38,895 bases of DNA from a virus: IMG/VR virus record IMGVR_UViG_3300028388_001251, positions 1 through 38,895 of that record; one strand, 5' to 3'. The position numbers were made by a program, and so were the translations under genes. This document shows, piece by piece, positions 1-38,520 of the stretch. The notes beneath the pieces were generated by a model. That model saw only the letters and a program-made list of their open reading frames with translations. It was not told where the DNA came from and ran no database searches. The first letter of the stretch is position 1, and every line of letters begins with the position of its first letter.

Positions 1-6
1 CCAATC

Positions 7-14
7 GTCACAAA
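7..14. promoter_or_regulatory. Half of an early-region palindrome, cut by the window edge
   Basis: GTCACAAA is the right arm of the 21-bp palindrome found seven more times up to 7083. Bases 2-6 would be its spacer and base 1 (c) the last base of the left arm. The left arm lies outside the window, so this copy is inferred. Confidence 0.5.
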
Positions 15-32
15 CGGCTCTGTAGTGCGGGC

Positions 33-533
33 TGTGAAAGCGCGTTTGAGCCCCGACGGAGGGTAAAATCGCGCAAATCGCTAGACAAAATTGCTGCGCG
101 TAGTACCACTAGACAAAATTAGGGGTCAATTTTGTCTAGCCTCCGCCGTTGATTTATAAGGAGTTTTTTTTGAGCTAGACAAAAATCGCGATTTTTCGAG
201 GGTAGGTAAACATTTTTTTATACGCCGGTGTGGCCCCTCACCCCTCCGACAGACAAAAGAAAAAAGGCCCGAAAAGTCTATCCATATCGTTTGTCTAGTC
301 TAAAAAAAAGGAAAAACGCCCAGCTTCTCCCAGCAAATCAACAACTTACGAGCTAGACATAACAATCTACATTAAAAAATTTTTGTCTAGTAAATTTGAA
401 AACTCCTTGCAAATCAATGACTTGGCGCTAGACAAAATTCTCGATTTCCAAATATTTTTGTCTAGTAGCCCCCCGTCGGCGTTTGTCTAGCTTTGTCTAG
501 CCTGTCGGCTTGGTAGTCCCGTTGTGAAAGCGC
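33..533. repeat. Direct repeat TGTGAAAGCGC flanking the iteron array
   Basis: The 11-mer TGTGAAAGCGC occurs at 33-43 and again at 523-533, near the two ends of the CTAGACAAAA array. The surrounding bases also agree partly (GCTGTGAAAGCGC against GTTGTGAAAGCGC). It may mark the borders of the control region or be a second protein-binding site. No function can be read from sequence alone. Confidence 0.4.
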
Positions 534-550
534 CCGGCTACTAGACAAAA
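81..550. repeat. Iteron array of CTAGACAAAA repeats, candidate replication origin or multi-site operator
   Basis: Eleven near-identical copies of CTAGACAAAA lie here. Plus-orientation copies start at 81, 109, 175, 428 and 541. Inverted copies (TTTTGTCTAG or one mismatch) end at 139, 298, 390, 465, 490 and 500. Two decayed copies lie near 250 and 353. The copies at 109-120 and 128-139 form a perfect inverted repeat with a 7-base centre. A longer unit (CTCC, GCAAATCAA, ACTT, GCTAGAC) is present at 327-358 and 403-433 and partly inverted at 148-164. The stretch is AT-rich and has no gene. Arrays like this bind initiators or repressors; which one applies here is inference. Confidence 0.7.
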
Positions 551-594
551 TAGTTACTCACGCTTATACGCTGTCAGGTACTACTTATGCATAC

Positions 595-623
595 TTGACA
601 TAAGCATTGTACTGGTGTATAAT
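595..623 (+). promoter_or_regulatory. Consensus sigma-70 promoter
   Basis: TTGACA (595-600) and TATAAT (618-623) both match the consensus perfectly and are separated by the optimal 17 bases. Transcription should begin near 630 and run right into the leader and early genes. It is the only perfect promoter I noticed in the window. It sits at the end of the iteron array, as expected for an early promoter read by unmodified host RNA polymerase. Confidence 0.85.
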
Positions 624-639
624 GACCTCTCAGGTCATT
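621..639. promoter_or_regulatory. Perfect 19-bp palindromic operator over the early promoter
   Basis: AATGACCT-CTC-AGGTCATT has two exactly complementary 8-base arms. It begins inside the -10 box and covers the expected transcription start, the classic position for a repressor. The repressor is not identified. Alternatively the palindrome forms the 5' hairpin of the transcript. Confidence 0.6.
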
Positions 640-713
640 GATAATCATGACAGCCTCCAGCTACCCGCTCGGTAGCGCGGGGGTCGGCTAGAGCCAAGAC
701 AGGTAGCGGTACT

Positions 714-734
714 TTTGTGACAGGTGGTCACAAA
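714..734. promoter_or_regulatory. Early-region palindrome, copy 1
   Basis: TTTGTGAC-AGGTG-GTCACAAA, both arms perfect. It lies about 85 bases downstream of the predicted start of the main early promoter, inside the leader, not next to a gene start. Confidence 0.7.
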
Positions 735-943
735 CCCGGAAACAGGTTGGGGACGCGCCACGGCGCGGAGCACAGACGGCAGATCGCACATTCCCCCGCG
801 GTCGAAGAAGCCCAGCTCACCCCAGCTACTACCTGCAAGGCCAGCGTAGGCACAGCGCCCTGCGCACCGACCCCTGCCATCCGACGCGCATACGGCACGG
901 CACCACCTGATAGGACGGCTTCGCATCCGTCCGAAGCGTCACC

Positions 944-1017
944 GGTATCTGCACCGCTGTGTCACTGCCTTTTACAGGCACGTCGGCCGACAACCGACCA
1001 CAGATACCCCGACGTGC
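944..1017 (+). ncRNA. Candidate structured RNA element (possible pseudoknot)
   Basis: Two long perfect complementarities interlock. GGTATCTG (944-951) pairs with CAGATACC (1001-1008), and GCACGTCGG (978-986) pairs with CCGACGTGC (1009-1017). The right arms are adjacent, as in an H-type pseudoknot with stacked helices. Local hairpins TGCCT-TTTAC-AGGCA (966-980) and GTCGG/CCGAC (982-998) compete with the second helix, so the element could switch between two folds. No known riboswitch class is recognised. Confidence 0.45.
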
Positions 1018-1187
1018 ACCTTTGAGTGATAGCGCCCACCCGGAGTCTGCTGCACAGGATTACTTACCTGTACTGGCGGATTGCGGTAACCCACCGGCGC
1101 CGTACTGGGCTCTCGCAGATTCTGGTGCTGGCATCCGCATTGAAACGACGGCCTGAGGACCTTTACGTCCTGCTTACGCAATAGACG

Positions 1188-1208
1188 TTTGTGACACCAC
1201 GTCACAAA
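1188..1208. promoter_or_regulatory. Early-region palindrome, copy 2
   Basis: TTTGTGAC-ACCAC-GTCACAAA, perfect arms. It is about 210 bases upstream of the ATPase start, with the hairpin at 1286-1322 in between. Its centre is identical to that of copy 7 (7063-7083). Confidence 0.7.
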
Positions 1209-1285
1209 GCACACCGTCGGAGTATTCCTTGACCAACAACAAGTGGCACACAAGTCTGCGAACACTTAATAGATTCGATTACTAC

Positions 1286-1322
1286 AGCCCGGCCAGATGA
1301 ACCATATCTGCGTCGGGCTTTC
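1286..1322 (+). terminator. Terminator-like hairpin before the ATPase gene
   Basis: AGCCCG (1286-1291) pairs with CGGGCT (1314-1319), and inside it CAGAT (1294-1298) pairs with ATCTG (1306-1310). A short TTT run follows. It would end transcripts from the 595-623 promoter after about 0.7 kb, or act as an attenuator. The short T run makes termination efficiency uncertain. Confidence 0.5.
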
Positions 1323-1415
1323 CTGTATGTGCGTTAGGCGCACACTGACGAGGCCGTACTCAGGCCGAAACAGGGCCGACCAACTACTTATCAATAGCCC
1401 AAGGAGGGCACCAAC

Positions 1416-2504
1416 ATGTCTGACACATCAATCACTGACAACGGCATCCAGAAGATCAACGTCGACCAAATCTCAGACCAGCTCGAGCTGGCGTGGGCCG
1501 TCGGCTGGGCGACCATCCTCTGGGGACTGCCGGGCATCGGCAAGTCGGCTGGGGTAAAGGAATTCGCCCGGAAGATAGACGCCATCCTCGTCGACATCCG
1601 GCTGAGCATGTACCAGTCCGTCGACCTGCGTGGCTTGCCCGACCTCGACGCTGACCTACCCGTCACCGTGTGGAAGATGGCCGCGACCCTGCCCTTCAAG
1701 GGCAACCCGATGTTCGCTGAGGCAGAGAAGAACAACACGCCCATAGTGCTGTTCCTCGACGAGATTCTCCACGCCGTCGGGCCTGTGCAGGCCGCGTCGT
1801 TCCAACTGCTGCACCCCGAAGATCGTGGGGTGGGCGAGTTTGAGCTGATCGACTCCGTCATCGTGGTGGCTGCGTCCAACATGCGCACCCATCGCAGCGG
1901 CGCCGGTGAGATGTACTCGGCGCAGGCCAACCGCCTGATGCACTACGAGGTCATGTCCTCGCAACGTGGATTCCTCGTGCACGCTGAGCAGCGTGAGATG
2001 TCTCCCTACGTCATCGCGTTCCTCAACTTCCGCCCCGAGTACACCAACATGAGCGAGAAGGCCATCAAGGCCAACGCCAAGGCGTTCCCGACCGAGCGTG
2101 TGTGGGAGGGTGTGAGCGACGTGTTGCGTGTAGCGAAGAACCCGACCGTGCGTCGGCGGGGCCTCGCCTCCCTGCTGGGCACTGGCGTGGCGGCCGAGTT
2201 CGAGGCGTTCATCGAGATGTGCGAGGACCTGCCCAAGCCATCGCAGATCATCGCCGACCCCGAGGGCACCCCGGTGCCGGACATCACCCGCCGTGACGTG
2301 CTGTGCGCTACAGCAAACATGTGCGCCCGCAAGATTGACAACACGACAGCCGAGGCGTTCGTGACCTACCTGCGCCGGATGCCGATGGAGTACCAAGTGA
2401 TGGCGCTGGTCACCATCAACAACGCGCCCAAGACTGCGGGTCTGGTCATCACCAGCGATGCCGTGGGCGACTTCAACCATGAGCTGTCCGACCAGCTCTT
2501 CTGA
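1416..2504 (+). CDS. MoxR/CobS-like AAA+ ATPase
   Basis: This 362-residue protein is an AAA+ ATPase of the MoxR type, a chaperone-like motor that usually works with a partner carrying a VWA domain. Visible motifs are Walker A GLPGIGKS (37-44), Walker B VLFLDE (111-116), a sensor-1 asparagine in VVAASN (150-155) and a likely arginine finger near R173. The start is set by a strong AAGGAGG site nine bases ahead. The second gene downstream encodes a protein with a metallopeptidase-like and a VWA domain, the expected partner, so the three genes at 1416-4860 form a module. In phages such pairs are early genes of poorly known function; remodelling of a host or phage complex is a plausible role. The family call is firm, the target unknown. 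Confidence 0.88.
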   Translation: MSDTSITDNGIQKINVDQISDQLELAWAVGWATILWGLPGIGKSAGVKEFARKIDAILVDIRLSMYQSVDLRGLPDLDADLPVTVWKMAATLPFKGNPMFAEAEKNNTPIVLFLDEILHAVGPVQAASFQLLHPEDRGVGEFELIDSVIVVAASNMRTHRSGAGEMYSAQANRLMHYEVMSSQRGFLVHAEQREMSPYVIAFLNFRPEYTNMSEKAIKANAKAFPTERVWEGVSDVLRVAKNPTVRRRGLASLLGTGVAAEFEAFIEMCEDLPKPSQIIADPEGTPVPDITRRDVLCATANMCARKIDNTTAEAFVTYLRRMPMEYQVMALVTINNAPKTAGLVITSDAVGDFNHELSDQLF

Positions 2505-2519
2505 CCAACCCCCAACCCC

Positions 2520-2538
2520 GCCCCGTTTGTGACGGGGC
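2520..2538 (+). other. GCCCCGT/ACGGGGC hairpin overlapping palindrome copy 3
   Basis: GCCCCGT (2520-2526) pairs with ACGGGGC (2532-2538) around a 5-base loop. It shares bases with the palindrome at 2526-2546, so only one of the two hairpins can form at a time. It has no T run, so it is not a simple terminator. The same arrangement recurs at 4869-4896 and 5734-5762. Confidence 0.55.
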
Positions 2539-2546
2539 GTCACAAA
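2526..2546. promoter_or_regulatory. Early-region palindrome, copy 3
   Basis: TTTGTGAC-GGGGC-GTCACAAA, perfect arms. It lies between the ATPase stop and the next gene, ending 39 bases before the ATG at 2586, and is followed by CTACTTAC (2558-2565) and AAGGAGG. Confidence 0.75.
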
Positions 2547-2585
2547 GCAACACCCATCTACTTACGCCCAAGGAGGGCATATCAC

Positions 2586-3473
2586 ATGGCACAAGTCAGC
2601 CACATCCACACCGCTCAGTCAGCCACTCACACCAGCCCGCTGCGCCGCAGCGCCATGCTCGTGAAGGTCAGCGTGACCAAGCCCACCACCAGTCGGGCGA
2701 ACAAACGTGTCCGTGACGAGGTCGCGCGTGACAAGTCAGCCGACAGCGACAGCGTGTCGGTGCACAACCGCATCCTGTCCAAGAGTTTTACGCAGCCCCT
2801 CGATCAGGTCTGCGCCAAGGCGCGTCAGCTCCTCAACGAACGTGCGCTGCCGTGGGACGACGACGGCTGGCGTGTGCTCAAGAAAACCGACTTCATGCAG
2901 CTGAAGCAGGACATTGCCGCTATCGAGCAGGAGCTGAAGAACGCCGTGATGGCCCAGCTCTCCAACTACCCCTACGAGGTACAGCGGGCGAAACAACGTT
3001 TGGGCTCCATGTTCGACCCGAAGCACTACCCATCCACCGGAGAGATTCTCTCCAAGTACAGCATCACGCTGCGGCACCAGCCGTTCCCGGACGCGGAGGA
3101 CTACAGGGCCGACGTGGCAGACAACGTCGGGGCGGCCATCGCTCAGCAGGCGCGGGACGAGTACGCCGCGCAGTACACCGAGGGGCTCAACGATGTCGTG
3201 GCCGAGTTCGGAAAGCTGGCTGCCGATGCCGTGGAGCGCCTCGAAGGTGGGCGACTCACGTCGGTGCTCGACAATCTGGTCAGCATGGGCAACAAGCTCG
3301 ACAGCTTGAACCTGACCGGCGACCCCAAGGTGACGCGCCTGTCTGCCGAGGCACGTCGGCGCCTGACCAGCATCACCGACCGTCCGGCGCTCGCAAAGGA
3401 CAAGACTCTGCGCAAAGCAGCAGCCGAGGACGTGAAGTCCCTGATCGACGACTTCTCTGACATGTGGGCGTAA
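2586..3473 (+). CDS. Unknown protein of the MoxR-VWA module
   Basis: This 295-residue protein is not recognised. It is charged and mostly helical. It has a basic N-terminus (about 20-55), a long helical stretch around the AIEQELKNAVMAQL segment, and a second helical half ending in DDFSDMWA. No catalytic motif, signal peptide or membrane segment is visible. I chose the ATG at 2586, nine bases after AAGGAGG; an in-frame GTG at 2529 lies inside the palindrome and is unlikely. Its place between a MoxR-type ATPase and its VWA partner suggests it is the third part of that complex, perhaps an adaptor. That is inference from position. Confidence 0.8.
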   Translation: MAQVSHIHTAQSATHTSPLRRSAMLVKVSVTKPTTSRANKRVRDEVARDKSADSDSVSVHNRILSKSFTQPLDQVCAKARQLLNERALPWDDDGWRVLKKTDFMQLKQDIAAIEQELKNAVMAQLSNYPYEVQRAKQRLGSMFDPKHYPSTGEILSKYSITLRHQPFPDAEDYRADVADNVGAAIAQQARDEYAAQYTEGLNDVVAEFGKLAADAVERLEGGRLTSVLDNLVSMGNKLDSLNLTGDPKVTRLSAEARRRLTSITDRPALAKDKTLRKAAAEDVKSLIDDFSDMWA

Positions 3474-3482
3474 GCCCACTTT

Positions 3483-3503
3483 TCTGTGACACCTTGTCAC
3501 AAA
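3483..3503. promoter_or_regulatory. Early-region palindrome, copy 4
   Basis: TCTGTGAC-ACCTT-GTCACAAA, with one mismatch in the left arm. It starts 10 bases after the previous stop codon and ends 25 bases before the ATG at 3529. Unlike most copies it is not followed by CTACTTAC. Confidence 0.7.
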
Positions 3504-3528
3504 CCACTCACCCATAGAGGTAACAGCT

Positions 3529-4860
3529 ATGAAGTTCACACCCGCCGAGCCCACCTACGAGCAGCGCACCCAGATCAGCAAGGCGCTGGGCAGGCTCAGT
3601 CTGACCAACCGGTTCTACGCAGAGGTACTCGGGCGACTGCCCGTCTACTTCACCGAAGACGTAGGCACCGCCGGCACCGACGGCATAGCGTTCTACTTCT
3701 CTCCGAGTTTCATGGAGAGGTACGACATGACCTTGGAGCAGGCGATGTTCGTCATGGCCCACGAGGTCGAGCACGTGGTGCTTGAGCATCCTGCACGTCG
3801 GGGCAGCGCTGACCCGATGGACTACAACATCGCTGGCGACGAGCGCATCAACAACAACTTGTTCGCCGCAGGCATGAAAGGCCCGACCGACGAGAACGGC
3901 AAGTTCATGGGCTACGCAAGCTCCAAGTACGCCGACCAGTCATGGTCCACCGAGCTGATTTTTCGTGACCGCGAACAGAACAAGCCCACGCCTCCCCCTC
4001 CCCCGCCGGGAGGTGAGGGTGACTCCAGTGACGATGGTGGTGACCAAGGGCAAGGCCAAGGTGACGACGGCGCTGGGGATCAGTCCGGTACTACAGAGCC
4101 GGGCGGCCAGCCGACCACCATGCCCAACGGTGTGGAGGACATCTTCGCTGGTGACGTGATCCAGCCCACCGACGAGAACGGCAAGCCCCTGACCGGTGCC
4201 GACTTGGCTGAGGCGCACAACGCCGTCAAGGGAGCCATCCTGTCCGCGGCGGCGGCCACCCGTGCCATCGACCCCGGCCTGATCCCAGCGCATCTGCGCG
4301 GTCCACTGGCTGAGCTTGTCGAGCCCGAGGTCGACTGGGTGGAGGTCATGCGCCCCTACATGTCAGCCACAGCACAAGACGATGAGAGCTGGGACATGCT
4401 CGACCAGCGCATGATCTCCCGACGCATCGCCATGCCGAGGCTTCACTCGGTTCGCGCTGGCACCGTCGGCGTCATCGTCGACACGTCCGGGTCATGCCGT
4501 GCACACATCGGCCCATTCCTGTCCGAGCTGTGCGCTCTGGCGGCCGAGGTCGAGCCCGAGGGCATCCGTGTGATTTTCATCGACACCGAGGTCCAGCACG
4601 ACATCACGACCACGCCGGAGGACTTCGAGGCGGACCTGTCCGAGCTGATGGCCAACCCGCCCTACGGTGGCGGCACTGACCTGCGCCCGGCGTTCGACGT
4701 GCTGGCCGACGTCGACGATCTCGAGTGCGTCCTGTGCATGACCGACATGATGACGCCCTTCCCCGACGTCGACTATCTCCATGCCGATGACACGCTATTC
4801 CTCGACACCTACGGGCGCATCGACGCGCCCTTCGGCGAGAAGGTCCTCATCGGCCGATAG
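3529..4860 (+). CDS. Putative metallopeptidase and VWA-domain protein (DUF2201-like)
   Basis: A 443-residue two-domain protein. The N-terminal part has a zincin-like HEVEH motif (78-82), followed by HPARRG and an aspartate in the DYNIAGDERIN segment, the pattern of DUF2201-type putative metallopeptidases. A proline-, glycine- and aspartate-rich linker (about 150-190) leads to a VWA-like domain with a MIDAS motif DTSGS (318-322), a GGGTD loop and a later TDMM segment. VWA proteins of this kind pair with MoxR ATPases, and one is encoded 1 kb upstream. A likely role is protein complex remodelling or proteolysis early in infection; the substrate cannot be told. AGAGGT lies upstream of the ATG at 3529. 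Confidence 0.85.
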   Translation: MKFTPAEPTYEQRTQISKALGRLSLTNRFYAEVLGRLPVYFTEDVGTAGTDGIAFYFSPSFMERYDMTLEQAMFVMAHEVEHVVLEHPARRGSADPMDYNIAGDERINNNLFAAGMKGPTDENGKFMGYASSKYADQSWSTELIFRDREQNKPTPPPPPPGGEGDSSDDGGDQGQGQGDDGAGDQSGTTEPGGQPTTMPNGVEDIFAGDVIQPTDENGKPLTGADLAEAHNAVKGAILSAAAATRAIDPGLIPAHLRGPLAELVEPEVDWVEVMRPYMSATAQDDESWDMLDQRMISRRIAMPRLHSVRAGTVGVIVDTSGSCRAHIGPFLSELCALAAEVEPEGIRVIFIDTEVQHDITTTPEDFEADLSELMANPPYGGGTDLRPAFDVLADVDDLECVLCMTDMMTPFPDVDYLHADDTLFLDTYGRIDAPFGEKVLIGR

Positions 4861-4868
4861 CCCCTCCC

Positions 4869-4888
4869 GCCCCGTTTTGTGACGGGGC
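4869..4888 (+). other. GCCCCGT/ACGGGGC hairpin overlapping palindrome copy 5
   Basis: GCCCCGT (4869-4875) pairs with ACGGGGC (4882-4888) around a 6-base loop and competes with the palindrome at 4876-4896, as near 2520. Confidence 0.55.
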
Positions 4889-4896
4889 GTCACAAA
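4876..4896. promoter_or_regulatory. Early-region palindrome, copy 5
   Basis: TTTGTGAC-GGGGC-GTCACAAA, perfect arms. It ends 21 bases before the ATG at 4918, followed by CTACTTAC (4898-4905) and GGAG. There is no room for a separate promoter between the palindrome and the gene. Confidence 0.75.
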
Positions 4897-4917
4897 CCTA
4901 CTTACGGAGAACAAGTA

Positions 4918-5136
4918 ATGACCTACAGCACACAGCAGCCCATCGAGCGCGGCGCTGCCAGCATGCTGATCGAGCTGCGCGACGGCACGATCACGGTGCG
5001 CCACGGTACCGACAACACGTTGCTGGCAACCATCGAGCAGACGCCGCCCGGCTCGTGGCGGCGCATCTGCCAACTACTACATGACATGGGAGCGCGTATG
5101 ACGCCTACGCCGAGGAGACAGAACAATGAGCATTAA
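4918..5136 (+). CDS. Small unknown protein
   Basis: A 72-residue protein without recognisable domain. Its middle (LIELRDGTITVRHGTDNTLLATIE) looks like a run of short beta strands and its C-terminus is basic and polar. I chose the ATG at 4918 because GGAG lies 9 bases ahead; an in-frame GTG at 4879 falls inside the palindrome. The end overlaps the next gene by 11 bases, so the two are probably translationally coupled. Confidence 0.7.
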   Translation: MTYSTQQPIERGAASMLIELRDGTITVRHGTDNTLLATIEQTPPGSWRRICQLLHDMGARMTPTPRRQNNEH

Positions 5137-5689
5137 ATTAGAGGTAACTGTTTCAGAGGACCAGCTGATCGACGTATGCCGGCGCGAGCTGGCCATTGCG
5201 CCCAAGGCAGACGACTCGGGGTTCATCACTTGGCTTGGCGCGCACCTTGACGCCGAGAGTGTCGACCCGATGGAGGTGGCTGCCGAGCTGGTCGAGCACA
5301 TGAGTCTGGCCGACCGGCTGGAGGTTGCGCGCGTGAGAGATGAGCGCGCCTTCGACGTGCTGAGGGCGGCCGACCTTGATAACTCCGACGTTGTCTCGTT
5401 CGTCGCGCAAAGGCTCAGCACCGACGATCTTCTGGATTACGCCGACGCCCCGACTGACGATGTGGCTGACTGGTTGGAGGGAAGCCCCGACATGCAGGTG
5501 ATCCGTCGGGCTGACACCATCGCTGACCAGCTGGATGCTATCGGCCTGACCCCTGCCAAGCTCTGCAACTGGCTGCAGGCCAATCACCCCGACGTTCTGC
5601 CCAAGCAGAACAACGTCGCCGACGTGCCCACGTTGGCGCTCATTAAAGAGCTGATGGACCGTGCGTCCAAGGAGAATGACAATGCCTGA
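5126..5689 (+). CDS. Unknown acidic protein
   Basis: A 187-residue, strongly acidic, mostly helical protein rich in D, A, L and V. No motif, signal peptide or membrane segment is seen. It starts inside the end of the previous gene with GAGGAG ahead, and is followed by a 14-codon frame that overlaps its stop codon. It belongs to the early block, which in phages often holds host-takeover proteins; nothing in the sequence says more. Confidence 0.75.
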   Translation: MSIKLEVTVSEDQLIDVCRRELAIAPKADDSGFITWLGAHLDAESVDPMEVAAELVEHMSLADRLEVARVRDERAFDVLRAADLDNSDVVSFVAQRLSTDDLLDYADAPTDDVADWLEGSPDMQVIRRADTIADQLDAIGLTPAKLCNWLQANHPDVLPKQNNVADVPTLALIKELMDRASKENDNA

Positions 5690-5726
5690 GTATCGAGTGG
5701 GTGTGTACGAGCCGGAGGAAATCTAA
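5682..5726 (+). CDS. Possible 14-residue peptide
   Basis: ATG at 5682 opens a frame for MPEYRVGVYEPEEI, ending at TAA 5724-5726. AAGGAG (5669-5674) is well placed and the start overlaps the stop of the gene before by 8 bases, the coupling style of this phage. It ends just before palindrome copy 6. The length is too short to be sure it is a gene; it could act as a leader peptide. Confidence 0.3.
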   Translation: MPEYRVGVYEPEEI

Positions 5727-5733
5727 CAACCCC

Positions 5734-5754
5734 GCCCCGTCTTTGTGACGGGGC
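5734..5754 (+). other. GCCCCGTC/GACGGGGC hairpin overlapping palindrome copy 6
   Basis: GCCCCGTC (5734-5741) pairs with GACGGGGC (5747-5754) around a 5-base loop. The stem is one pair longer than at the other two sites. It excludes the palindrome hairpin at 5742-5762. Confidence 0.55.
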
Positions 5755-5762
5755 ATCACAAA
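5742..5762. promoter_or_regulatory. Early-region palindrome, copy 6
   Basis: TTTGTGAC-GGGGC-ATCACAAA, with one mismatch in the right arm. It ends 23 bases before the ATG at 5786 and is followed directly by CTACTTAC (5763-5770). Confidence 0.7.
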
Positions 5763-5785
5763 CTACTTACTGATAGGACTACCAC

Positions 5786-6625
5786 ATGCCTACGATAGAC
5801 AAGTTTACCAGAGAACAGGCCGAAGACCTGTTCTATAACGACAGCCACTACATCTACGACACGTATTGGAGCGACATGCGGGACGCCGCCGAGTACATCA
5901 TATGCGGCATGCTCGATGAGGATAAGTACAGTTGCCTAACCTACTTTTGCCGTCAGACCTTAAAGGCTGCCCCGCAGAAAGGAATCGACCACTCCCTTCG
6001 AAGGTTGGACCCGTGCATGGAAGAGGTCGGAGGTGGCATAGAAATATCTGGCTTTGACTTGGAGCTGGACAGAGTAAATCTCCCCAAGGCAGTGCCTTCC
6101 CTCCGCGCGCACGTCGGGCTCACTACAGCAGATTTGACAGTTCTAGCTGCTGCTGCTGCTTGCTTTGGTGCAGCCGTGTTGCCGACGTTCGAGGTCAGGG
6201 AGAATCACAGAAGCTCCCGTACTATAGAGATTGGGGGGTTGTTGCTGTCTAACCGACGAGCCGACCTGACCGACGAAGATGCGGCCACGATCAGAGATGA
6301 CATCAGGGAGGAGTACGAGGCAAGCGAGGAAGACCCGACGTACGCGGACAAGACCATCGAGCTGTTTCGTCTGCACGCCAAAGAGTTAGTGCCCACGCTA
6401 TGTGGCGCTAACCCGCACCACATGTTTCCCACAACGGTAGACTTATTCGAGCCGCTTATGCGTGTCATAGATAAGTTTGTTGTGTACTATACTGACTTCA
6501 TAGATAGCGTAGAGAGTGCGCTGGCTGCTGAGTCTGAGTATCTGCAATCGTTCGAGTGTTGGTATGAATCAATGCTTGCCAACGAGGTAGAGTTTGATGC
6601 CCCCGAAGGAGAGGACAATGAATGA
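5786..6625 (+). CDS. Unknown protein
   Basis: A 279-residue protein with no recognised domain. It is acidic and rich in aromatic residues (Y, F, W), with cysteines near 38, 46 and 51. A small-residue stretch around 115-135 (AAAAACFGAAV) could be a buried helix or a weak membrane segment. Codon use is noticeably more AT-rich than in the polymerase and ATPase genes, hinting at separate acquisition. The start follows AGGA and palindrome copy 6. The end overlaps the start of the next gene. Confidence 0.75.
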   Translation: MPTIDKFTREQAEDLFYNDSHYIYDTYWSDMRDAAEYIICGMLDEDKYSCLTYFCRQTLKAAPQKGIDHSLRRLDPCMEEVGGGIEISGFDLELDRVNLPKAVPSLRAHVGLTTADLTVLAAAAACFGAAVLPTFEVRENHRSSRTIEIGGLLLSNRRADLTDEDAATIRDDIREEYEASEEDPTYADKTIELFRLHAKELVPTLCGANPHHMFPTTVDLFEPLMRVIDKFVVYYTDFIDSVESALAAESEYLQSFECWYESMLANEVEFDAPEGEDNE

Positions 6626-6842
6626 CCAACCGCACCCACCTAACGATCTCGAGAACGTTATCCGACATCTACAGAAAGATGTCAGGTCTATTGCCAACCG
6701 ACTCAAGGCGCAGGAGCGTCGAGCAATTCGCGTTGAGACTCGCCTATGTAAACTTGCAGAAGCGCTTGGGCACGACGACGTTCTCGAGATCACACCTGAA
6801 AACGCCGCAGCTTATGCGGATGGTGGCCAAGGAACTCAGTGA
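6618..6842 (+). CDS. Small coiled-coil protein
   Basis: A 74-residue protein, charged, with a helical heptad-like stretch (LENVIRHLQKDVRSIANRLK). I chose ATG 6618, spaced about eight bases after AGGAG; an in-frame ATG at 6594 lies deeper in the previous gene. Another frame (ATG 6622) is also open here. In this frame G and C dominate codon position 1 and are scarce in position 2, as in true genes, while the other frame shows the reverse, so I favour this one. Function unknown. Confidence 0.55.
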   Translation: MNDQPHPPNDLENVIRHLQKDVRSIANRLKAQERRAIRVETRLCKLAEALGHDDVLEITPENAAAYADGGQGTQ

Positions 6843-7062
6843 CAGGAAGATCGTCGGCGCGTTCTATCGCTGCGGTAATGGCGAGGAGGAGGCTCGCTTA
6901 CGCAGTGTCTTGCTCAGTCTCGACGATGGGCTTTACACGTGCGACGTTGTGGGGAGTCGCGCTATGAAAGACATAGGCCCCCACAAAACAGTTGAACGCG
7001 CACAAGCGTTCTTACAAATCCAGTGGGGGTACCCACTGACTTATTCAGCACAAGAAATCTAG
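6814..7062 (+). CDS. Small unknown protein
   Basis: The frame is open from ATG 6622, but the segment before about 6815 is better explained by the gene at 6618-6842. I therefore place the start at ATG 6814 (ATG 6820 is also possible), giving 82 residues and a 29-base overlap with the previous gene. No clear ribosome binding site is visible, so expression may rely on translational coupling. A gene finder may prefer the 146-residue version from 6622. The protein is mixed alpha/beta with no recognised motif. Confidence 0.45.
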   Translation: MRMVAKELSDRKIVGAFYRCGNGEEEARLRSVLLSLDDGLYTCDVVGSRAMKDIGPHKTVERAQAFLQIQWGYPLTYSAQEI

Positions 7063-7083
7063 TTTGTGACACCACGTCACAAA
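7063..7083. promoter_or_regulatory. Early-region palindrome, copy 7
   Basis: TTTGTGAC-ACCAC-GTCACAAA, perfect arms, identical to copy 2 including the centre. It begins right after the preceding stop codon and ends 25 bases before the ATG at 7109, followed by TTACTTAC and AGGAG. It is the last copy in the window. Confidence 0.75.
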
Positions 7084-7108: not shown

Positions 7109-8092
7109 ATGTTTGGTAACTTCGATAGCGGCAACATTCCAAGCATCACTTCATTCGCCATGGCGAAGAAGTTTTACGAGACGACCACTCCAATAACCCG
7201 AGGCCCCAACAAGGGGCGCATACCCCTGCGCACAAACCGAGCAGACTCAGACACTTATTGGGTAGAGCGTGATGTACGTCGTCACGACCTGCTGCGCGAT
7301 AAGGACGAGCCTGTAGAGGCGTACGTGTTCAACATGTACCGCACCGAGATCATCGTCTATTACGCCGATGGTGTGATTGAAATCAGCGACTACGAGTCGC
7401 AGACCACTAGGAAGGTGCAGAACCGCCTCACACCCAACACCGTAAATATATACGGCGGTGCGCAGAACAAGTTTGTGGCCATCCCCGCAAATAAGTCAGC
7501 CTGCGCGACACTGATGGCTCCGTTCCTCCGCGGCCACTCCTTTGTGATGCCGTTCTACGGCAACATGTTTCTTGTACCCAACAAGGACGGCCGGTGGACA
7601 GTGATGAACCACGGCTACTACGTGCGCCTTGGTCGGACCATCCACGACCCGCTGCTCGCCAAGTACGTCCGCGCTGTGCAGAAGTCGTTACGTGCACTGA
7701 CCCGCATGGGTGGTGACCAGAGCAACGACCCGCTGTTCCTCGAGCACCTTCCCGGCGAAGGCCCGGGCTCAGGCTATTTCTACGACATGGGCGACTCCAT
7801 GCGTCGGGCGTCCCAGCACCTGTACAACCACATCGAGAAGACAGGCTGGAAAGAAGGCCAGCGTGTGCGCACCAGCGACTTGAACGCCCTGCTCCTGCCG
7901 ACTGACCACTACGGTCGGACCTTGTGCAGCTCGCTCATGGAGCGGTTCACTAGGGGTAGCGACCTGAAGGCCCTGCGCTTCTACGTGCAGGACGGCGCTA
8001 CGACCGAGTATTCAGCGGCGCACTGGGTCGTGGGTGAGAAAGAGCTGAACAGCCTGCAGGCTGCGATAGTTGAGTGCGAGGCGGCCGCATGA
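7109..8092 (+). CDS. Unknown 327-residue protein
   Basis: No domain is recognised. The N-terminal half (about 45-190) reads like a beta-rich globular domain with many Y, V and I residues; the C-terminal half is more helical. There is no signal peptide or membrane segment. AGGAG and palindrome copy 7 precede it, and its stop codon overlaps the start of a small membrane protein (ATGA). It is the last large gene of the early block, before the terminator at 8215. Confidence 0.75.
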   Translation: MFGNFDSGNIPSITSFAMAKKFYETTTPITRGPNKGRIPLRTNRADSDTYWVERDVRRHDLLRDKDEPVEAYVFNMYRTEIIVYYADGVIEISDYESQTTRKVQNRLTPNTVNIYGGAQNKFVAIPANKSACATLMAPFLRGHSFVMPFYGNMFLVPNKDGRWTVMNHGYYVRLGRTIHDPLLAKYVRAVQKSLRALTRMGGDQSNDPLFLEHLPGEGPGSGYFYDMGDSMRRASQHLYNHIEKTGWKEGQRVRTSDLNALLLPTDHYGRTLCSSLMERFTRGSDLKALRFYVQDGATTEYSAAHWVVGEKELNSLQAAIVECEAAA

Positions 8093-9458: not shown

Positions 9459-9648
9459 AGAACACCAGTGCCCGCGCTGCTTCCGATACCTCCACAGCAA
9501 CGCAGATAACTACGAACTGGTCGGCTACTGGTCGCCTCCGCTTGCTTTCTATGGCATAGGCGCATCGGTGCCGCCGGATGCTGTTCCCGTCTACAGGAGA
9601 GTACCCGACGGGCGCTCGCATCAAGCCCTCGCGGGCGGGAGTGAGTGA
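9451..9648 (+). CDS. Small protein with CPRC motif
   Basis: A 65-residue protein beginning MDEEHQCPRCFRYL. The CPRC pair looks like half of a zinc ribbon; no second pair follows, so metal binding would need H14 or a partner. It ends GGSE at the third copy of the AGTGAGTGATG junction. Confidence 0.6.
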   Translation: MDEEHQCPRCFRYLHSNADNYELVGYWSPPLAFYGIGASVPPDAVPVYRRVPDGRSHQALAGGSE

Positions 9649-9932
9649 TGGGTAACTCCAATTTCATCATCGAAGATTCAAAGCCGCTACCACCAAAGCG
9701 CAAGCCGAAGTACCCCTTCGCTGCAATGGAGGTCGGCCAGTCGTTCCAGATACCCATCACGGACGCCGACGTGGAAGAGCATGGTGATGAGTCCACTGCA
9801 TTGGCCCGGGTGCGCAGTGCTGTTTCGTCCAGCGCCGCGGCGTTCAACCGTCAGGGTCTGGGCAGGAAGATCGTCGTACGAAAGACCGGCGAGCGCTCTC
9901 TGCGCTGCTGGTGTGTGCCGGCCGACTACTGA
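9648..9932 (+). CDS. Small conserved-type phage protein before the polymerase
   Basis: A 94-residue protein. A short polar N-terminus leads to the segment KYPFAAMEVGQSFQIP, then a helical stretch and a basic beta C-terminus (GRKIVVRKTGERSLRCWCV). Proteins of this shape occur near phage replication genes and may bind nucleic acid, judging by the basic C-terminus; that is inference. Start ATG 9648 overlaps the previous stop, and its own stop overlaps the polymerase start (TGATG). Confidence 0.65.
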   Translation: MGNSNFIIEDSKPLPPKRKPKYPFAAMEVGQSFQIPITDADVEEHGDESTALARVRSAVSSSAAAFNRQGLGRKIVVRKTGERSLRCWCVPADY

Positions 9933-12784
9933 TGGCATGGGAAGCGTTCGACGTCGAGACAGACGGCGAGCTGCGGGAGTACGCCCTGCAGCCGTGGCGA
10001 GTGAAGGACCGTCAAGCATGGCTGACCTCTTGGTCGGTGTCATCGAACGAAGGCAACCGGGTGACTTTCGCGCCGGAGCACCCTCGGGATACAGCCAACC
10101 TGTTGCGTCCTTTGGTAGAGCGTTGGCTCGACGAGAAGACCACCGTCTGCCTCTGGAACGGCGTGTTCGATGTGTCGTGGCTCTATGCCTATGGGTTCGC
10201 CGACTGGCTCACGCAGGTCAAGTGGCTCGACGGCATGCTGCTTTGGCGGCACATCGAGAACCAGCCGCAGTACGGGGTCGCCGCCGATAAGCGCACGTCG
10301 TTCGGGCTGAAGCGCGCCGTCGAACATTACCTGCCGCAGTACGCTGGCTATGAGGAAGGCGTTGATTTCAGTGGCAGCGACCCCCTGATGCTGCTGCACT
10401 ACAACGCGTGCGATACATGGTTCACCCGGGCGCTGACTCGTCACTTCTACCTCCAGCTGGAGAAAGAGCCCCGTCGGCTCAAGGCGGCGCTGATCGAGGC
10501 GCACAGCATCCCGCTGATAGCACGAACTGTTTACGAGGGGATGGAGATTGACCACGACGGTCTGGACTCCCTCGACGAGTACCTCCAGCAAACTGCCGCT
10601 GATCGGCTGGCCCAGCTGAAGCCTCATGGTGCCACTGACAAGGTGCTGGCATCGCCGAAGCAACTGTCGGAGCTGCTGTTCGAGGACTGGGGCCTGACCC
10701 CGCTCAAGCACGGCAAGACTGGCCCGAGTACCGACAAGGAAACGCTGGTTGAGCTGGCCCAGAAGGACGACCGGATGCTCCTGATCCACCAGTACCGTGA
10801 GGCCAAGGGCAACCACAAGAAGTTCTGCGTCAACGTGCGCGCCGCGGCTGAGTACAACAACGACGGTCGGGCACACCCCGAGGCCAAGGTGTTCGGCACG
10901 TACACTGGCCGGGTCACTTACGCGTCGGCGCAAGGCAGGAACAAGGATCGCCGGCAAACTGGTTGGGCGCTCCACCAGATGAAGCGTGACCCCGAGTACC
11001 GCCGACTGATCAAGGCCCCCAATGGCTACCAGATAGTGGAGCTGGATGCCGCAGGTCAGGAGTTCCGGTGGATGGCCGAGCTGTCCGGCGACCCGACAAT
11101 GCGAGCGCTGTGCCAGCCCGGCGAGGACCCTCACAGCTACATGGGTGCGCAGGTCGGCAACCTCGAGTACCGCGAAGTGCAGGAAGGCGCCGGCAAGGAC
11201 AAACACCTGAAGGCTATCCGACAGGTGGGCAAGGTGGCGAACCTGTGCGTCGCAGCAGATACGCTGGTGCTGACTGATCGAGGTTACACCCCAATCGTAG
11301 ATGTCACGCTGGCTGATCTGGTGTGGGACGGGGTTGAGTTTGTCCGACACGAGGGCGTTGTGTGCAGCGGTGTACGTCCGGTACTGCAGTATCGTGGCAT
11401 AATTGCTACGCCTGATCATCAGGTGTTGGTCAACGGACAATGGGTGAGCTTGGATGAAGCGGCAAGACATGGTTGGCAAATCGAATCCGCGCTGGGCACG
11501 GGATGGGCGTGTAAAGCGCGGGCAGTTGTTCGGATCATGGGAGGTGTTGTCCGACGAGCCGTTTCCGAAGCACGGAGCACTTTACGTTCTGGCTCGGTGC
11601 TCATGCTCGACCGAGCGGGAGGTGAGCCTGCGTTCTCTGGAGACAGGCAAGTCCAGTCAGTGCAAAAGCTGCGCTGTAAGGGGCAGGCACACCCGCACAG
11701 GACATCTGATCGTGAAGGATGCACGACTGAGGCGCCTGCAGAAGCGAACGAACGACTGGTTCCAGCGGTGCAACAACCCCAACTCTCAATCCTATCGCAA
11801 CTATGGGGCGCGTGGCATCGAGTGCCGTTTCGAGTCGGTCGCTGCTTGCGTGACCTATGTGTTGGAGAACTTACCCCACGACACCTATCTTGGCGTGGAC
11901 ATCGACAGGATCGACAACAACGGGCACTACGAACCCGGGAATCTGCGTCTGGTTTCTCGGGCGCAGAACCTGCGCAACACAAGGCGCACTACGCATGTGC
12001 TGTGGCGGGGCAGGCAAATACTTTTGCAGGACTGGGCGGAGAACCCCTACGCTCTGACCACAGCGGGGCGCTATGTCGCGCAGGGAATGACCGGCGAAGC
12101 GATTTTGCAGAAGGCTCGTCAGGCCGTGCAGGAGAAGCGCAAAGGCTGGACGCAGATTCAAGAACGGTTGAGCCAGTCTACGACATCGTAAACTGCGGCC
12201 CACGAACACGATTCGCAGCCAACGGAGTGATTGTCCACAACTCACTCCAGTTCCGCACCAGTGCGCCACGCCTGCTGTCGGCGGCGCGGGTCAACCACGG
12301 CATGATGGACATGACTCTGCCGAAGGCAACTCACATCCGCAACACCTACCTCCGGGCGTACCGGGGCGTGCCGGAGTATTGGCAGCGCCAGATCGCGTTC
12401 CTTACAGCCAACAACTATGTGAAAACGCTGGCAGGCAGGAAGGTGGTGGTTCCGCCCCGGCTGCAGTCAATGTTCGAGTGGTCGACGCAGTCTACGAGCA
12501 TCAACTTTCCTGTACAGGGCACCGGCGGCGATCAGAAGTACCTAGCCATGTCGGTCATCCGACCACTGCTGCTGCAGCTCGATGCGATCTTCCTGTTCGA
12601 CCTTCACGACGGCCTGTACTTCCTCGTCCCTGACGCTGCGGTCGACGAGTTCATCACGAAAGCCAAGTACCTGTTCGACAACCTGCCCTACGAAAAAGCG
12701 TGGGGCATCATCCCGAGTATCCCACTTCCGTGGGACGTAAAGGTAGGCCCCACTTGGGGCACTATGGAGGAGCTGGACCTATGA
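9932..12784 (+). CDS. Family A DNA polymerase interrupted by an intein
   Basis: Replicative DNA polymerase of the Pol I family, 950 residues as translated and 618 after removal of the 332-residue intein. The 3'-5' exonuclease domain is complete: D7-V-E9, D80 and Y157-N-A-C-D161 (DEDDy). Polymerase motif A is D372-A-A-G-Q-E-F-R379. Motif B reads R430, K434-V-A-N-L438, then the intein (439-770), then S771-L-Q-F. Motif C is H892-D893-G894, with glycine where most family members have glutamate. L438 aligns with E. coli Pol I Phe762, so this is a Leu762-type enzyme. No 5'-3' exonuclease domain. Activity should depend on protein splicing. The start overlaps the previous stop (TGATG). Forms the replication core with the primase-helicase at 18916. 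Confidence 0.93.
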   Translation: MAWEAFDVETDGELREYALQPWRVKDRQAWLTSWSVSSNEGNRVTFAPEHPRDTANLLRPLVERWLDEKTTVCLWNGVFDVSWLYAYGFADWLTQVKWLDGMLLWRHIENQPQYGVAADKRTSFGLKRAVEHYLPQYAGYEEGVDFSGSDPLMLLHYNACDTWFTRALTRHFYLQLEKEPRRLKAALIEAHSIPLIARTVYEGMEIDHDGLDSLDEYLQQTAADRLAQLKPHGATDKVLASPKQLSELLFEDWGLTPLKHGKTGPSTDKETLVELAQKDDRMLLIHQYREAKGNHKKFCVNVRAAAEYNNDGRAHPEAKVFGTYTGRVTYASAQGRNKDRRQTGWALHQMKRDPEYRRLIKAPNGYQIVELDAAGQEFRWMAELSGDPTMRALCQPGEDPHSYMGAQVGNLEYREVQEGAGKDKHLKAIRQVGKVANLCVAADTLVLTDRGYTPIVDVTLADLVWDGVEFVRHEGVVCSGVRPVLQYRGIIATPDHQVLVNGQWVSLDEAARHGWQIESALGTGWACKARAVVRIMGGVVRRAVSEARSTLRSGSVLMLDRAGGEPAFSGDRQVQSVQKLRCKGQAHPHRTSDREGCTTEAPAEANERLVPAVQQPQLSILSQLWGAWHRVPFRVGRCLRDLCVGELTPRHLSWRGHRQDRQQRALRTRESASGFSGAEPAQHKAHYACAVAGQANTFAGLGGEPLRSDHSGALCRAGNDRRSDFAEGSSGRAGEAQRLDADSRTVEPVYDIVNCGPRTRFAANGVIVHNSLQFRTSAPRLLSAARVNHGMMDMTLPKATHIRNTYLRAYRGVPEYWQRQIAFLTANNYVKTLAGRKVVVPPRLQSMFEWSTQSTSINFPVQGTGGDQKYLAMSVIRPLLLQLDAIFLFDLHDGLYFLVPDAAVDEFITKAKYLFDNLPYEKAWGIIPSIPLPWDVKVGPTWGTMEELDL
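11246..12241 (+). mobile_element. Intein in polymerase motif B, with a nested endonuclease gene
   Basis: The inserted 332 codons start with Cys (TGC 11246-11248) in CVAADTLVLTDRGYTPIVDV (block A), have a block B TPDHQVLV with its T and H, and end with block F/G VYDIV...ANGVIVHN, followed by extein Ser. All residues needed for splicing are present. The splice domains span only about the first 75 and last 27 residues. Between them the polymerase frame is open but reads as low-quality, R-, A- and G-rich sequence, because the true coding frame there is the HNH gene at 11454-12191, one base out of frame. The insertion falls just after the residue matching Pol I 762, a known intein hot spot in the catalytic centre. 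Confidence 0.9.
11454..12191 (+). CDS. HNH homing endonuclease nested out of frame in the intein
   Basis: A 245-residue protein in the +1 frame relative to the polymerase. It carries a treble-clef-like zinc site (C49, C51, C70, C73), the conserved RCNNPN...YRNYGARGI segment (105-121) typical of phage HNH homing endonucleases, an HNH core DIDRIDNNGHYEPGN (149-163) followed by a QN-x4-R helix, and a C-terminal NUMOD-like helix-turn-helix (LQDWAENPYALTTAGRY). It has its own ATG with a weak GGTGAG ahead and its own TAA, inside the codons for intein block F. The enzyme should cut intein-free polymerase genes and drive spread of the element. The shadow frame must stay open for the polymerase to be made. 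Confidence 0.88.
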   Translation: MKRQDMVGKSNPRWARDGRVKRGQLFGSWEVLSDEPFPKHGALYVLARCSCSTEREVSLRSLETGKSSQCKSCAVRGRHTRTGHLIVKDARLRRLQKRTNDWFQRCNNPNSQSYRNYGARGIECRFESVAACVTYVLENLPHDTYLGVDIDRIDNNGHYEPGNLRLVSRAQNLRNTRRTTHVLWRGRQILLQDWAENPYALTTAGRYVAQGMTGEAILQKARQAVQEKRKGWTQIQERLSQSTTS

Positions 12785-14440: not shown

Positions 14441-14669
14441 TTCCTCCGACGCCAAACGGAAAAGGGCTCGTCGGGCTGTAAACGCCGAGCGCAAGGCTAA
14501 GGGGTTGCCCCCGCTGAGGTCCGACCAGCATGTGGACCACAAGAAGCCCATAAGCAAGGGCGGGAGCAACGACCGCTCCAACCTGCGGATCACATCCGAG
14601 TCGAAGAACACGTCCTATGCACGCAACAAGGACGGCTCGATCAAAAAGAAGAGGAGCAAGAAAGGATGA
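14355..14669 (+). CDS. HNH endonuclease
   Basis: A 104-residue basic protein. The N-terminal half is lysine- and arginine-rich; the C-terminal half has the HNH core DQHVDHKKPISKGGSNDRSN (58-77) followed by LRITSESKNTSYARNK, with metal-binding His, the central Asn of SNDRSNL and a final Asn. Small HNH enzymes like this nick or cut DNA and serve in phage packaging, recombination or as mobile nucleases. It lies among replication genes, not next to a terminase. GGAGG precedes the ATG. Stop overlaps the next start. Confidence 0.82.
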   Translation: MPSSKNYKRDSKQEYKTAKARGENGTGSDSSDAKRKRARRAVNAERKAKGLPPLRSDQHVDHKKPISKGGSNDRSNLRITSESKNTSYARNKDGSIKKKRSKKG

Positions 14670-14941
14670 CCAAGAAACTGAGCTTCAGCGTGGCGCTTGA
14701 CCAAATCAAGCAGGGGCGCCGCATGGCACGTGAGGGCTGGAACGGCAAGGACATGTTCATCTTTCTCGTGCCGGGCAGCACCTTCGTCGTGAACCGCCCC
14801 CCGCTGTTGGGCATCTACCCCGAGGGCACCGAGATCAACTACCACTCGCACATCGACATGCGCACGGCGGACGGGCAGATCGTGCCGTGGGTCGCCAGCC
14901 AGACTGACCTGCTGGCCGATGACTGGGTGATCGCCTCATGA
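14666..14941 (+). CDS. Tad2-like anti-Thoeris protein (DUF2829)
   Basis: A 91-residue protein with the layout of the DUF2829 family, now called Tad2. It has a helical N-terminus FSVALDQIKQGRRMAREGWNG, the segment MFIFLVPGSTFVVNR, HIDMRTADGQIVPWVASQTD and the ending LLADDWVI. Tad2 proteins bind and sequester the cyclic ADP-ribose-type signal made by the bacterial Thoeris defence system, blocking it from activating its effector. That function is known for family members, inferred here. It overlaps the next gene's start (ATGA). Confidence 0.88.
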   Translation: MTKKLSFSVALDQIKQGRRMAREGWNGKDMFIFLVPGSTFVVNRPPLLGIYPEGTEINYHSHIDMRTADGQIVPWVASQTDLLADDWVIAS

Positions 14942-36504: not shown

Positions 36505-38520
36505 TTACCCTGTTGTCGCTGGCTTAACTACGTAGCTACAGTCCTTCGAGAACTGCTTGCGGTCTTGCACGGATGCTGACACCTGCCCGGACTCGTTTCC
36601 AGATACTCGATGTGATGCACTACCGCTGGCACCCAACGAACTCTGGAAGATCGACGACGCTGACTGTGACAACGCACCTGCAGCACGCAGCTGTGCCTCC
36701 TGATACGCTACATCCAATCTCGCTGTTTGCACAGCTGTATCTGCTGCAAGCCCATCCTCTGCAGTCTTGAGCTGCGCATCTGCTATGGCGATACTGTTCT
36801 GCGCATCGCGGAAGTCAATGTTGGCTGCATTATACTGCCCGGCGTAACGCGCACCTTCCGCACTTGCCCGGCCATAGTCACGAGCGACAGAGTCGGATGC
36901 ACTAAGCGCTCGAAGCACATTTGTCAGGTAGTCTCTCTGCGTGCTCACAGCGGCTCGAAAGCTCTGCAGCTCCGCGTCCATGGCACCTGTGCTGGCAGCT
37001 AGATATTGGCGGTACGCCGACGTGCGATCACCCTCCATAGCCCAAAGCCTACGGTACGCATCAAACTTCTCTTGGTTGACCGCCACCTGCGACGCGGACA
37101 CAGCGACCTCACTCTCGTAGGCTTGGGTCGAGGAGTCGAACCACTCGTAGTATTTGCTGTATGCGCCAATCGCCTCTTTGAAAGATGCGATGTTCTGCTG
37201 GGCGACACCAAGATTCGCCACAACACCCCGCAGCTGTGACTCGTAGACCTCTAGCGGCAGCACCTGCTGCTCTGCGTCCAGCGCCCGCACCTGCGATGCA
37301 ATGCGCAGGGTTCTAGCGTCGGCAGAGAACATATCGGTCTGCGCCTTGAACCGCGCCAACGCCGCGTTGGTGTATTCAATCTCCCCGGAGATCGCTTCGT
37401 TCTGCTGGGCGACTGCTCGAACGTATTGGTTGTACGCCCGGACTTGTTCCGAGACTATCTGCTCCTGCGCACGATAGTTCGACAGCACCATGTTGTACGC
37501 AGCTTCTGCGAGCTTGAGGTTGTAAGCGTAAACCTTGATGTTCTGCCGGATGTAGCGCATGAACAGCGCGAAGTGGTACCGCTCGATCTTGACCGACTCG
37601 GCGATGGCGTTTACTACTACCTCCTGAGACTTTTCGTAGACCTCATTGCGGACCGTCTCAATCGCGTCCTCTCGTTCACGAGCCTCGTTCTCGTAGACAT
37701 CAATCTGCGCTGCCTCTGCTGGGCCAAAAGAGTCTGAGAAGTTCCGCTTGGCCGCGTCTTCCATAATGGCGTCAATGGCTTTTTTGACATCACGATCTAC
37801 CCTAGAAGTGTCTCCGCGGTACAGCTCGCCCTGCAGGGGTATCCACTGATCCAGCAGACCCGATCCCTGCATCAGGCCATGTATGTGAGCACGCAGCGCA
37901 GCGTCGTCCTCGTACCGCAGCTCTGGCTGGAAATCGAGCCGCTCCACATCGACCTCAAGACTCTCCGGCAGCAGGTCGCTGACGTCCAGAGGGCTGAGGT
38001 CTGTCGCCTGAAAAGACTCGGGGATGATAGTGGGCAGCGCCGGCCTCTCCCCCATCACAATCTTCGGGGGCTTCACGTACAGGTCGCTAGGGGGGTCTGG
38101 GATCGTAACGCCGGCGATAGTGGGGTAATCCAAAGGAGGCGACGGCGCCCTCGCGTCCCCGGCCAACTCCGGGCCTTCTGAAGTCTGGTACGTGATGTCA
38201 GGGATCGGTGCCGAGTCAAACTCGTAGTCGATGACCGACTGGACAGCCTTGTACGTCGCCGCTTCCAGTGTGGGTAGCCCCCCTGAAAGAGCAGGGGGTG
38301 TGCCCGGGGCGAAGTTGGGCTCCTCCAGCGAAGCCTCCGCCTGATCAGGCGTGTCGATCTCGAAGACCACCGAACCAATCTCCGGTGCGGGGACCTTCGC
38401 CACCCCCTTTATCTCCTCACGCATCTCACCCGCCGCACGAATCTTGTTGTACAGCGGGCTGCCCTCGCTCAGCGCGAAGTTTGCGACGCCTGCGTAAAGA
38501 TACTGTAAGCAGTCAGCCAT
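36505..38520 (-). CDS. Unknown helical structural protein
   Basis: A 671-residue protein. The first 200 residues are rich in P, D and E and probably extended; from about 250 to 600 it is a long run of helices with heptad-like spacing and many A, Q, Y and E residues (EIEYTNAALARFKAQTDMFS). The end is rich in serine and glycine. No catalytic motif or membrane segment. Its place directly before the portal gene, in the same direction, argues for a virion or assembly role, for example a tail or internal helical protein. GAGGT lies ahead of ATG 38520. Confidence 0.72.
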   Translation of the reverse strand: MADCLQYLYAGVANFALSEGSPLYNKIRAAGEMREEIKGVAKVPAPEIGSVVFEIDTPDQAEASLEEPNFAPGTPPALSGGLPTLEAATYKAVQSVIDYEFDSAPIPDITYQTSEGPELAGDARAPSPPLDYPTIAGVTIPDPPSDLYVKPPKIVMGERPALPTIIPESFQATDLSPLDVSDLLPESLEVDVERLDFQPELRYEDDAALRAHIHGLMQGSGLLDQWIPLQGELYRGDTSRVDRDVKKAIDAIMEDAAKRNFSDSFGPAEAAQIDVYENEAREREDAIETVRNEVYEKSQEVVVNAIAESVKIERYHFALFMRYIRQNIKVYAYNLKLAEAAYNMVLSNYRAQEQIVSEQVRAYNQYVRAVAQQNEAISGEIEYTNAALARFKAQTDMFSADARTLRIASQVRALDAEQQVLPLEVYESQLRGVVANLGVAQQNIASFKEAIGAYSKYYEWFDSSTQAYESEVAVSASQVAVNQEKFDAYRRLWAMEGDRTSAYRQYLAASTGAMDAELQSFRAAVSTQRDYLTNVLRALSASDSVARDYGRASAEGARYAGQYNAANIDFRDAQNSIAIADAQLKTAEDGLAADTAVQTARLDVAYQEAQLRAAGALSQSASSIFQSSLGASGSASHRVSGNESGQVSASVQDRKQFSKDCSYVVKPATTG

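Follow-up and report, generated by a model that had tools for sequence, protein, structure and literature searches.

Lineage-specific palindromes ahead of phage early genes as candidate operators of a co-evolving regulator

The 38,895-base virus contig IMGVR_UViG_3300028388_001251 from IMG/VR (referred to here as the window, meaning the whole stretch analyzed) carries seven copies of a 21-bp palindrome, TTTGTGAC-N5-GTCACAAA, all within positions 714–7083. Contigs of this type may be incomplete. Palindromes of related design and different sequence are found ahead of orthologous genes in other members of the same phage family. The palindromes are interpreted, with little better than even confidence, as dispersed operators of a co-evolving phage regulator that probably serve as transcription roadblocks.

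Palindromes in the window and in relatives with the same arms

The window was scanned for the palindrome with up to three mismatches allowed, and 100 dinucleotide-preserving shuffles were used as the control. Seven sites were recovered at exactly the positions given in the first-pass annotation (Table 1), and no further site at ≤3 mismatches was found in the whole window. The shuffled sequences contained a mean of 0.11 sites and a maximum of 1. Five of the seven copies are perfect, and the other two have one mismatch apiece. The half copy that had been noted at positions 7–14 is present and is better read as an eighth full copy truncated where the contig begins, because base 1 is the C that ends the left arm, bases 2–6 form the spacer, and bases 7–14 form the right arm.

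Copies 1 and 2 are located in a long gene-free leader, downstream of a consensus promoter. Measurement of the distances confirmed that copies 3–7 each follow a stop codon and precede a ribosome-binding site, 21–39 nt from the next ATG. These copies start 0–52 nt past the last stop codon among the called genes; in the case of copy 6, an uncalled 14-codon frame stops at 5726, 15 nt ahead of the palindrome. Upstream of three palindromes, a GCCCCG sequence pairs with CGGGGC in or adjoining the spacer (2519–2540, 4868–4890, and 5733–5757). This pairing would constitute a second hairpin that is exclusive with the palindromic stem.

Viral contigs were scanned for the TTTGTGAC/GTCACAAA arms at gaps of 3–9. 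Many single matches and few multi-copy contigs were obtained, and most of the single matches are probably fortuitous in so large a collection. All seven of the multi-copy contigs that were fetched whole are homologous to the window phage (MoxR, DUF2201, the 295-aa protein, polymerase, SNF2, primase, portal, or giant protein). The sites in these relatives are restricted to the early region, with none among the structural genes. Many are located ∼16–40 nt ahead of a ribosome-binding site and ATG on the early-gene strand, with a median of 27 nt to the start codon as judged from heuristic gene calls. The gap in the TTTGTGAC-type relatives is 3, 4, or 5 between phages and nearly constant within each. 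In several phages a sigma-70 promoter is found 64–118 bp upstream of a site (−35 box to site), and further copies precede internal genes. A nucleotide search of phage records gave no match, and none of the cultured relatives that were checked carries a window-type site. In relative G002 (oriented 57357–57493), three tandem TTTGCTAC-gccgc-GTAGCAAA dyads with a 58-bp period adjoin TTTGTGAC copies and represent a second site type within one phage.

Divergence of the site sets across the family

Twenty-eight viral loci, some of which are near-duplicates, were gathered by a MoxR profile search. Dyads were counted de novo as identical 7-bp arms at one gap, with eight shuffles per locus as the control. 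At least three copies of one identical 7-bp-armed dyad are present in 24 of the 28 loci, versus a shuffle maximum of 1. The arms are lineage-specific (TTTGTGAC, GGTGTTAC, GGTGTCAC, TTTGTTAG, TTTGATAC, GTTGGGAC, CGAGTCAA, TGTCACGA-N7, TTTGACT-N7, and others), and the dyads are 19–27 bp in length. The gap is nearly constant within a lineage and varies from 3 to 7 between lineages. In 15 loci, a local palindrome appears 19–36 nt upstream of the start of the orthologous MoxR-ATPase gene, with seven unlike arm sequences. Therefore, the place of the palindrome is conserved and its sequence has been replaced as a set. The relatives show many symmetric arm changes, as illustrated by TTTGTTAC in G004 and CTTGTGAC in G006. 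The lineage-specific palindromes suggest that a control protein has evolved together with its DNA sites.

In two similar loci, the start codon falls within the right arm of an ATTTTGT-N11-ACAAAAT dyad. For the dyad of loci L264 and L265, GATTTTGT-N11-ACAAAATG, the ribosome-binding site is central and the start codon is in the right arm. Rhizobium phage RHph_TM3_14A (MN988472, locus L117) contains ∼50 GTTACCT-N3/4-AGGTAAC-like dyads distributed genome-wide, including coding DNA. Its GTTACCT-N4-AGGTAAC dyads were kept apart from the window-type system because they are genome-wide and are not found before its MoxR gene.

Proposed operator model and alternative explanations

In the proposed model, a homodimeric DNA-binding protein, most probably phage-encoded, would bind the palindrome as an operator in duplex DNA. 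Host RNA polymerase would initiate at a small number of sigma-70 promoters upstream and transcribe the early operon, and regulator bound just 5′ of each early gene's ribosome-binding site would block elongation. With a block before each gene, the early genes could be attenuated or shut off singly, and the upstream gene would not be truncated. The regulator and its entire operator set would co-evolve, which would provide each lineage with its own half-site and half-site spacing.

The first-pass annotation proposed that the palindromes may function either as RNA hairpins or as operators. An mRNA stem that serves as a recognition or cleavage site for a protein of the phage or the host, and that controls the translation, stability, or processing of early genes, is rather unlikely. 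It would account for the median of 27 nt to the start codon, the equal transcribed position before first and internal genes, the symmetric arm changes across relatives, and the prediction that 64 of 76 sites overall form the palindromic stem in context. The search for covariation in the arms, which the annotation had suggested, found symmetric changes in abundance; these are equally compatible with a DNA dyad and with an RNA stem and are thus not decisive on their own. Mismatched arm pairs were counted in the mRNA sense for 21 lineages. Mismatches of the A-C type occupy 39 cells versus 17 for the G-U type, and 22 versus 13 distinct events are obtained when each is counted once per lineage, position, and type; because neither lineages nor copies are independent of one another, these counts give a direction and not a precise probability. 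A selected RNA stem should favor G-U, and the finding that A-C is not rarer than G-U therefore disfavors an RNA stem.

In one clade, the spacer conforms to A-Y-N-R-T in 53–55 of 55 sites at each position (eight loci; GGTGTTAC, GGTGTCAC, and TTTGTTAG types). Positions 2/4 of this center are T/A in 31 sites, T/G in 12, and C/A in 9. They are often non-complementary and are too close for pairing across a one-base loop. Each half-site thus has its own Y, with independent half-site degeneracy. For the window copies at 2526, 4876, and 5742, folding predictions gave the competing GCCCCG/CGGGGC hairpin and a palindromic-stem probability of ∼0. Across sites the arms are fixed and the centers vary, which is the reverse of most RNA–protein sites. 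No Rfam match was obtained at the palindromes, and the sole match in the window is the hammerhead at 1320–1376 described below. From the mismatch pattern, the unpairable symmetric center, the three copies without an RNA stem, the fixed arms, and the gap that is kept within a phage and differs between phages, the anatomy of the sites favors duplex DNA recognized by a dimer. Of the two possibilities raised initially, the operator is thus favored and the RNA hairpin disfavored.

Conventional local regulation, in which the dyad would bind an activator or repressor that acts on weak gene-near promoters and not on elongation, is improbable. Dyad sites are typical of dimeric regulators, and some of the sites are 64–118 bp past promoters, but the dyads do not overlap recognizable promoters and are followed by no conserved −10 box, with just 16–40 nt to the start codon. 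The earlier suggestion of promoters inside the palindrome was not borne out either, as the sigma-70 promoters lie 64–118 bp upstream and no −10 box is found at a fixed distance after the palindromes.

It is very improbable that the palindromes are parS-like sites for replication, partition, or nucleoid organization. Multiple copies are found near an iteron-like leader, and RHph_TM3_14A carries its different dyad throughout the genome, coding regions included, but the sites of the window family are linked to gene starts and to particular orthologs. Neither ParB_N nor integrase was found in eight phage records, some of which are fragments (controls positive; 10 of 14 genomes for ParB_N), and plasmid partition was rejected because no ParB_N was found. 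Hardly credible, and largely refuted by the profile and motif evidence, is a role as DNA-hairpin promoters of the N4 kind, used by a virion RNA polymerase. The palindromes do precede early genes, and the N-terminal part of a PHROG labeled virion RNA polymerase is matched by the giant minus-strand protein (E 1.4e-9), but PDB searches with this protein and its 8-sequence profile yielded no RNA polymerase, the protein lacks ordered polymerase motifs, and the early region is served by ordinary sigma-70 promoters. A Pfam RNA_pol search was empty, as was its control, and carries no weight.

Several observations weigh against the operator model. No repressor, ParB, or helix-turn-helix (HTH) family was found in Pfam scans of ∼190 small early open reading frames (ORFs); HTH_3 was matched in G004 only, with a sub-threshold match in G002. 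Half-site spacing differs between phages and, slightly, within a few of them (N5 in six sites and N4 in one for G001), which would be unusual for a rigid dimer. The sites are ∼20–35 nt from the start codon even where the leader has more room, and this distance could reflect a link to translation. The dyads are transcribed, downstream of recognizable promoters, and before individual genes, and a bound protein could halt transcription ahead of each ribosome-binding site. This block is an inference, as are the protein itself, its dimeric form, and its encoding by the phage, whereas the sites, their placement, conservation, divergence as sets, and DNA-type pattern are observed.

The gene for DUF7303 (window 9645–9932) is present in six of the six palindrome phages fetched whole that carry MoxR and replication genes, and it was not found in RHph_TM3_14A, Rollin, HMO-2011, or CRP-1 (the last two as 50-kb pieces). 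DUF7303 is not claimed as the regulator because its AlphaFold model (pLDDT 88) gave no significant PDB fold match. Among the matches listed, from 119 bacterial stretches, no multi-copy host regulon was found, and the lineage-specific site sequences argue against one conserved host regulator.

As a tentative possibility, a family of apparently lytic environmental phages may share a regulator–operator system without recognized repressor or lysogeny genes, in which the recognition sequence and half-site spacing shift by lineage at the same orthologous starts and the DNA-binding protein belongs to no known family. The family has ∼10 different site sequences, several of which occupy orthologous positions, and offers a natural experiment on the joint change of a DNA-binding specificity and of a dozen dispersed sites. 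The family is large enough for the regulator to be sought by co-variation. The question is also raised of why phages without recognized lysogeny genes keep such a system.

Other features of the window and comparison with known systems

The features of the early region are collected in Table 1. The plus-strand early genes also include those for DNA polymerase A, dUTPase, exonucleases, an SNF2 helicase, and a primase-helicase. The portal, the major head protein, and a 2,236-aa giant protein are encoded on the minus strand. By portal, the RHph_TM group of Rhizobium phages is closest among cultured relatives (37% identity), with HMO-2011-like phages more remote; by primase, Pseudomonas phage Rollin is closest.

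Table 1. Palindromes, promoter, and genes in the early region of the window
Feature	Position	Strand	Remarks
Eighth palindrome copy, right part, cut by contig end	1..14	+	C-caatc-GTCACAAA; from sequence and spacing
Sigma-70 consensus promoter	595..623	+	TTGACA-N17-TATAAT; extended ATACTTGACATAAG common to relative G001
Palindrome copy 1	714..734		perfect; leader, 118 bp past −35 box
Palindrome copy 2	1188..1208		perfect; leader
MoxR-like AAA+ ATPase gene	1416..2504	+	phrog_1297, E 2e-68
Palindrome copy 3	2526..2546		39 nt ahead of ATG 2586
295-aa protein, function not assigned	2586..3473	+	in most palindrome-bearing relatives, not in RHph_TM3_14A
Palindrome copy 4	3483..3503		one mismatch (TCTGTGAC...); 25 nt ahead of ATG 3529
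Metallopeptidase-like/VWA gene	3529..4860	+	DUF2201
Palindrome copy 5	4876..4896		perfect; 21 nt ahead of ATG 4918
72-aa ORF	4918..5136	+	3′ of copy 5
Palindrome copy 6	5742..5762		one mismatch (...ATCACAAA); 23 nt ahead of ATG 5786
279-aa ORF, function not assigned	5786..6625	+
Palindrome copy 7	7063..7083		perfect; immediately 3′ of stop codon, 25 nt ahead of ATG 7109
327-aa protein	7109..8092	+	family present in 21 of 30 loci compared

A candidate type III hammerhead at 1320–1376 (+) was detected with Rfam RF00008 (40 bits versus a gathering score of 48.5, E 4.4e-6). Its core looks intact, with CUGACGA, GAAAC, and a GUA cleavage triplet. It is located in the leader 40 nt ahead of the MoxR ATG, at a position taken by a palindrome in many relatives, and a core-motif scan of all loci studied gave one further instance, in L107. 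The AT-rich leader at 81–549 contains 11 iteron-like copies of TTTGTCTAG/CTAGACAAA in both orientations, which are not repeated in the relatives checked and are possibly a replication origin. The DNA polymerase A gene at 9911–12784 (+) is split by an insertion that begins with CVAADTLVLTDRGYTPI, ends with IVHN-S, and seems to be an intein. A Tad2-like Thoeris anti-defense protein is encoded at 14666–14941 (+) (Pfam E 5.5e-25; 78% identity to its G004 counterpart). The tRNA-SeC called by ARAGORN at 37120–37213 (−), within the ORF at 36505–38520, is probably false.

Start-proximal dyad arrays without assigned function have been noted for more than 10 years in a few actinobacteriophage clusters, and arrays similar to those of the window family, also without assigned function, are known from clusters EG, O, and K. 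The portions of the source papers used for the comparisons with these clusters and with cluster A give no case of start-proximal dyads with a demonstrated dimeric regulator. The stoperators of cluster A resemble the window sites in being dispersed, with a genome-specific consensus that tracks the regulator, and the cluster A repressor is described as terminating elongation (PMC6550527, PMC9283540). A genome-specific site set is likewise found within the present phage family. Stoperators, however, are asymmetric, oriented sites for a monomeric repressor of temperate phages (PMC6550527, PMC9283540), whereas the window sites are symmetric and the family dyads span 19–27 bp. No integrase or ParB_N was found in the eight records (some fragments), and no repressor family in the early ORFs. 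The palindromes were therefore not placed in the stoperator family, since both the asymmetric site and an encoded repressor with integrase or parABS are defining features of it.

The ESAS of cluster K are likewise inverted repeats, imperfect ones, ahead of the starts of non-structural genes with a consensus that varies by subcluster, but their arms are imperfect and 17 bp long, a 13-bp SAS is linked to them, and they contain SigA-like promoter boxes (PMC3203893, PMC11373665). No −10 box was seen within the dyads of the window family, and the promoters are upstream. Mycobacteriophage cluster O has more than 30 copies of a 17-bp dyad, TGTTCGG-N3-CCGAACA, which the authors suggest is a site for a dimeric regulator (PMC4351075). 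These share invariant arms and a variable center with the window sites. Unlike the window sites, about a third of them are intragenic and they are not closely tied to starts (PMC4351075), and in this they are closer to the GTTACCT dyads of RHph_TM3_14A.

The Microbacterium phages of cluster EG carry 8–10 copies of the inverted repeat GATCAACC-NN-GGTTGATC, typically 14–22 bp before start codons (PMC7302621). Multiple identical intergenic dyads shortly before the starts of non-structural genes are found in the window family as well, and in both cases short dyads occupy short intergenic gaps at one end of the genome. The sequences differ, and the phages are unrelated by organization. One sequence is used throughout cluster EG (PMC7302621), whereas in the window family each lineage has its own.

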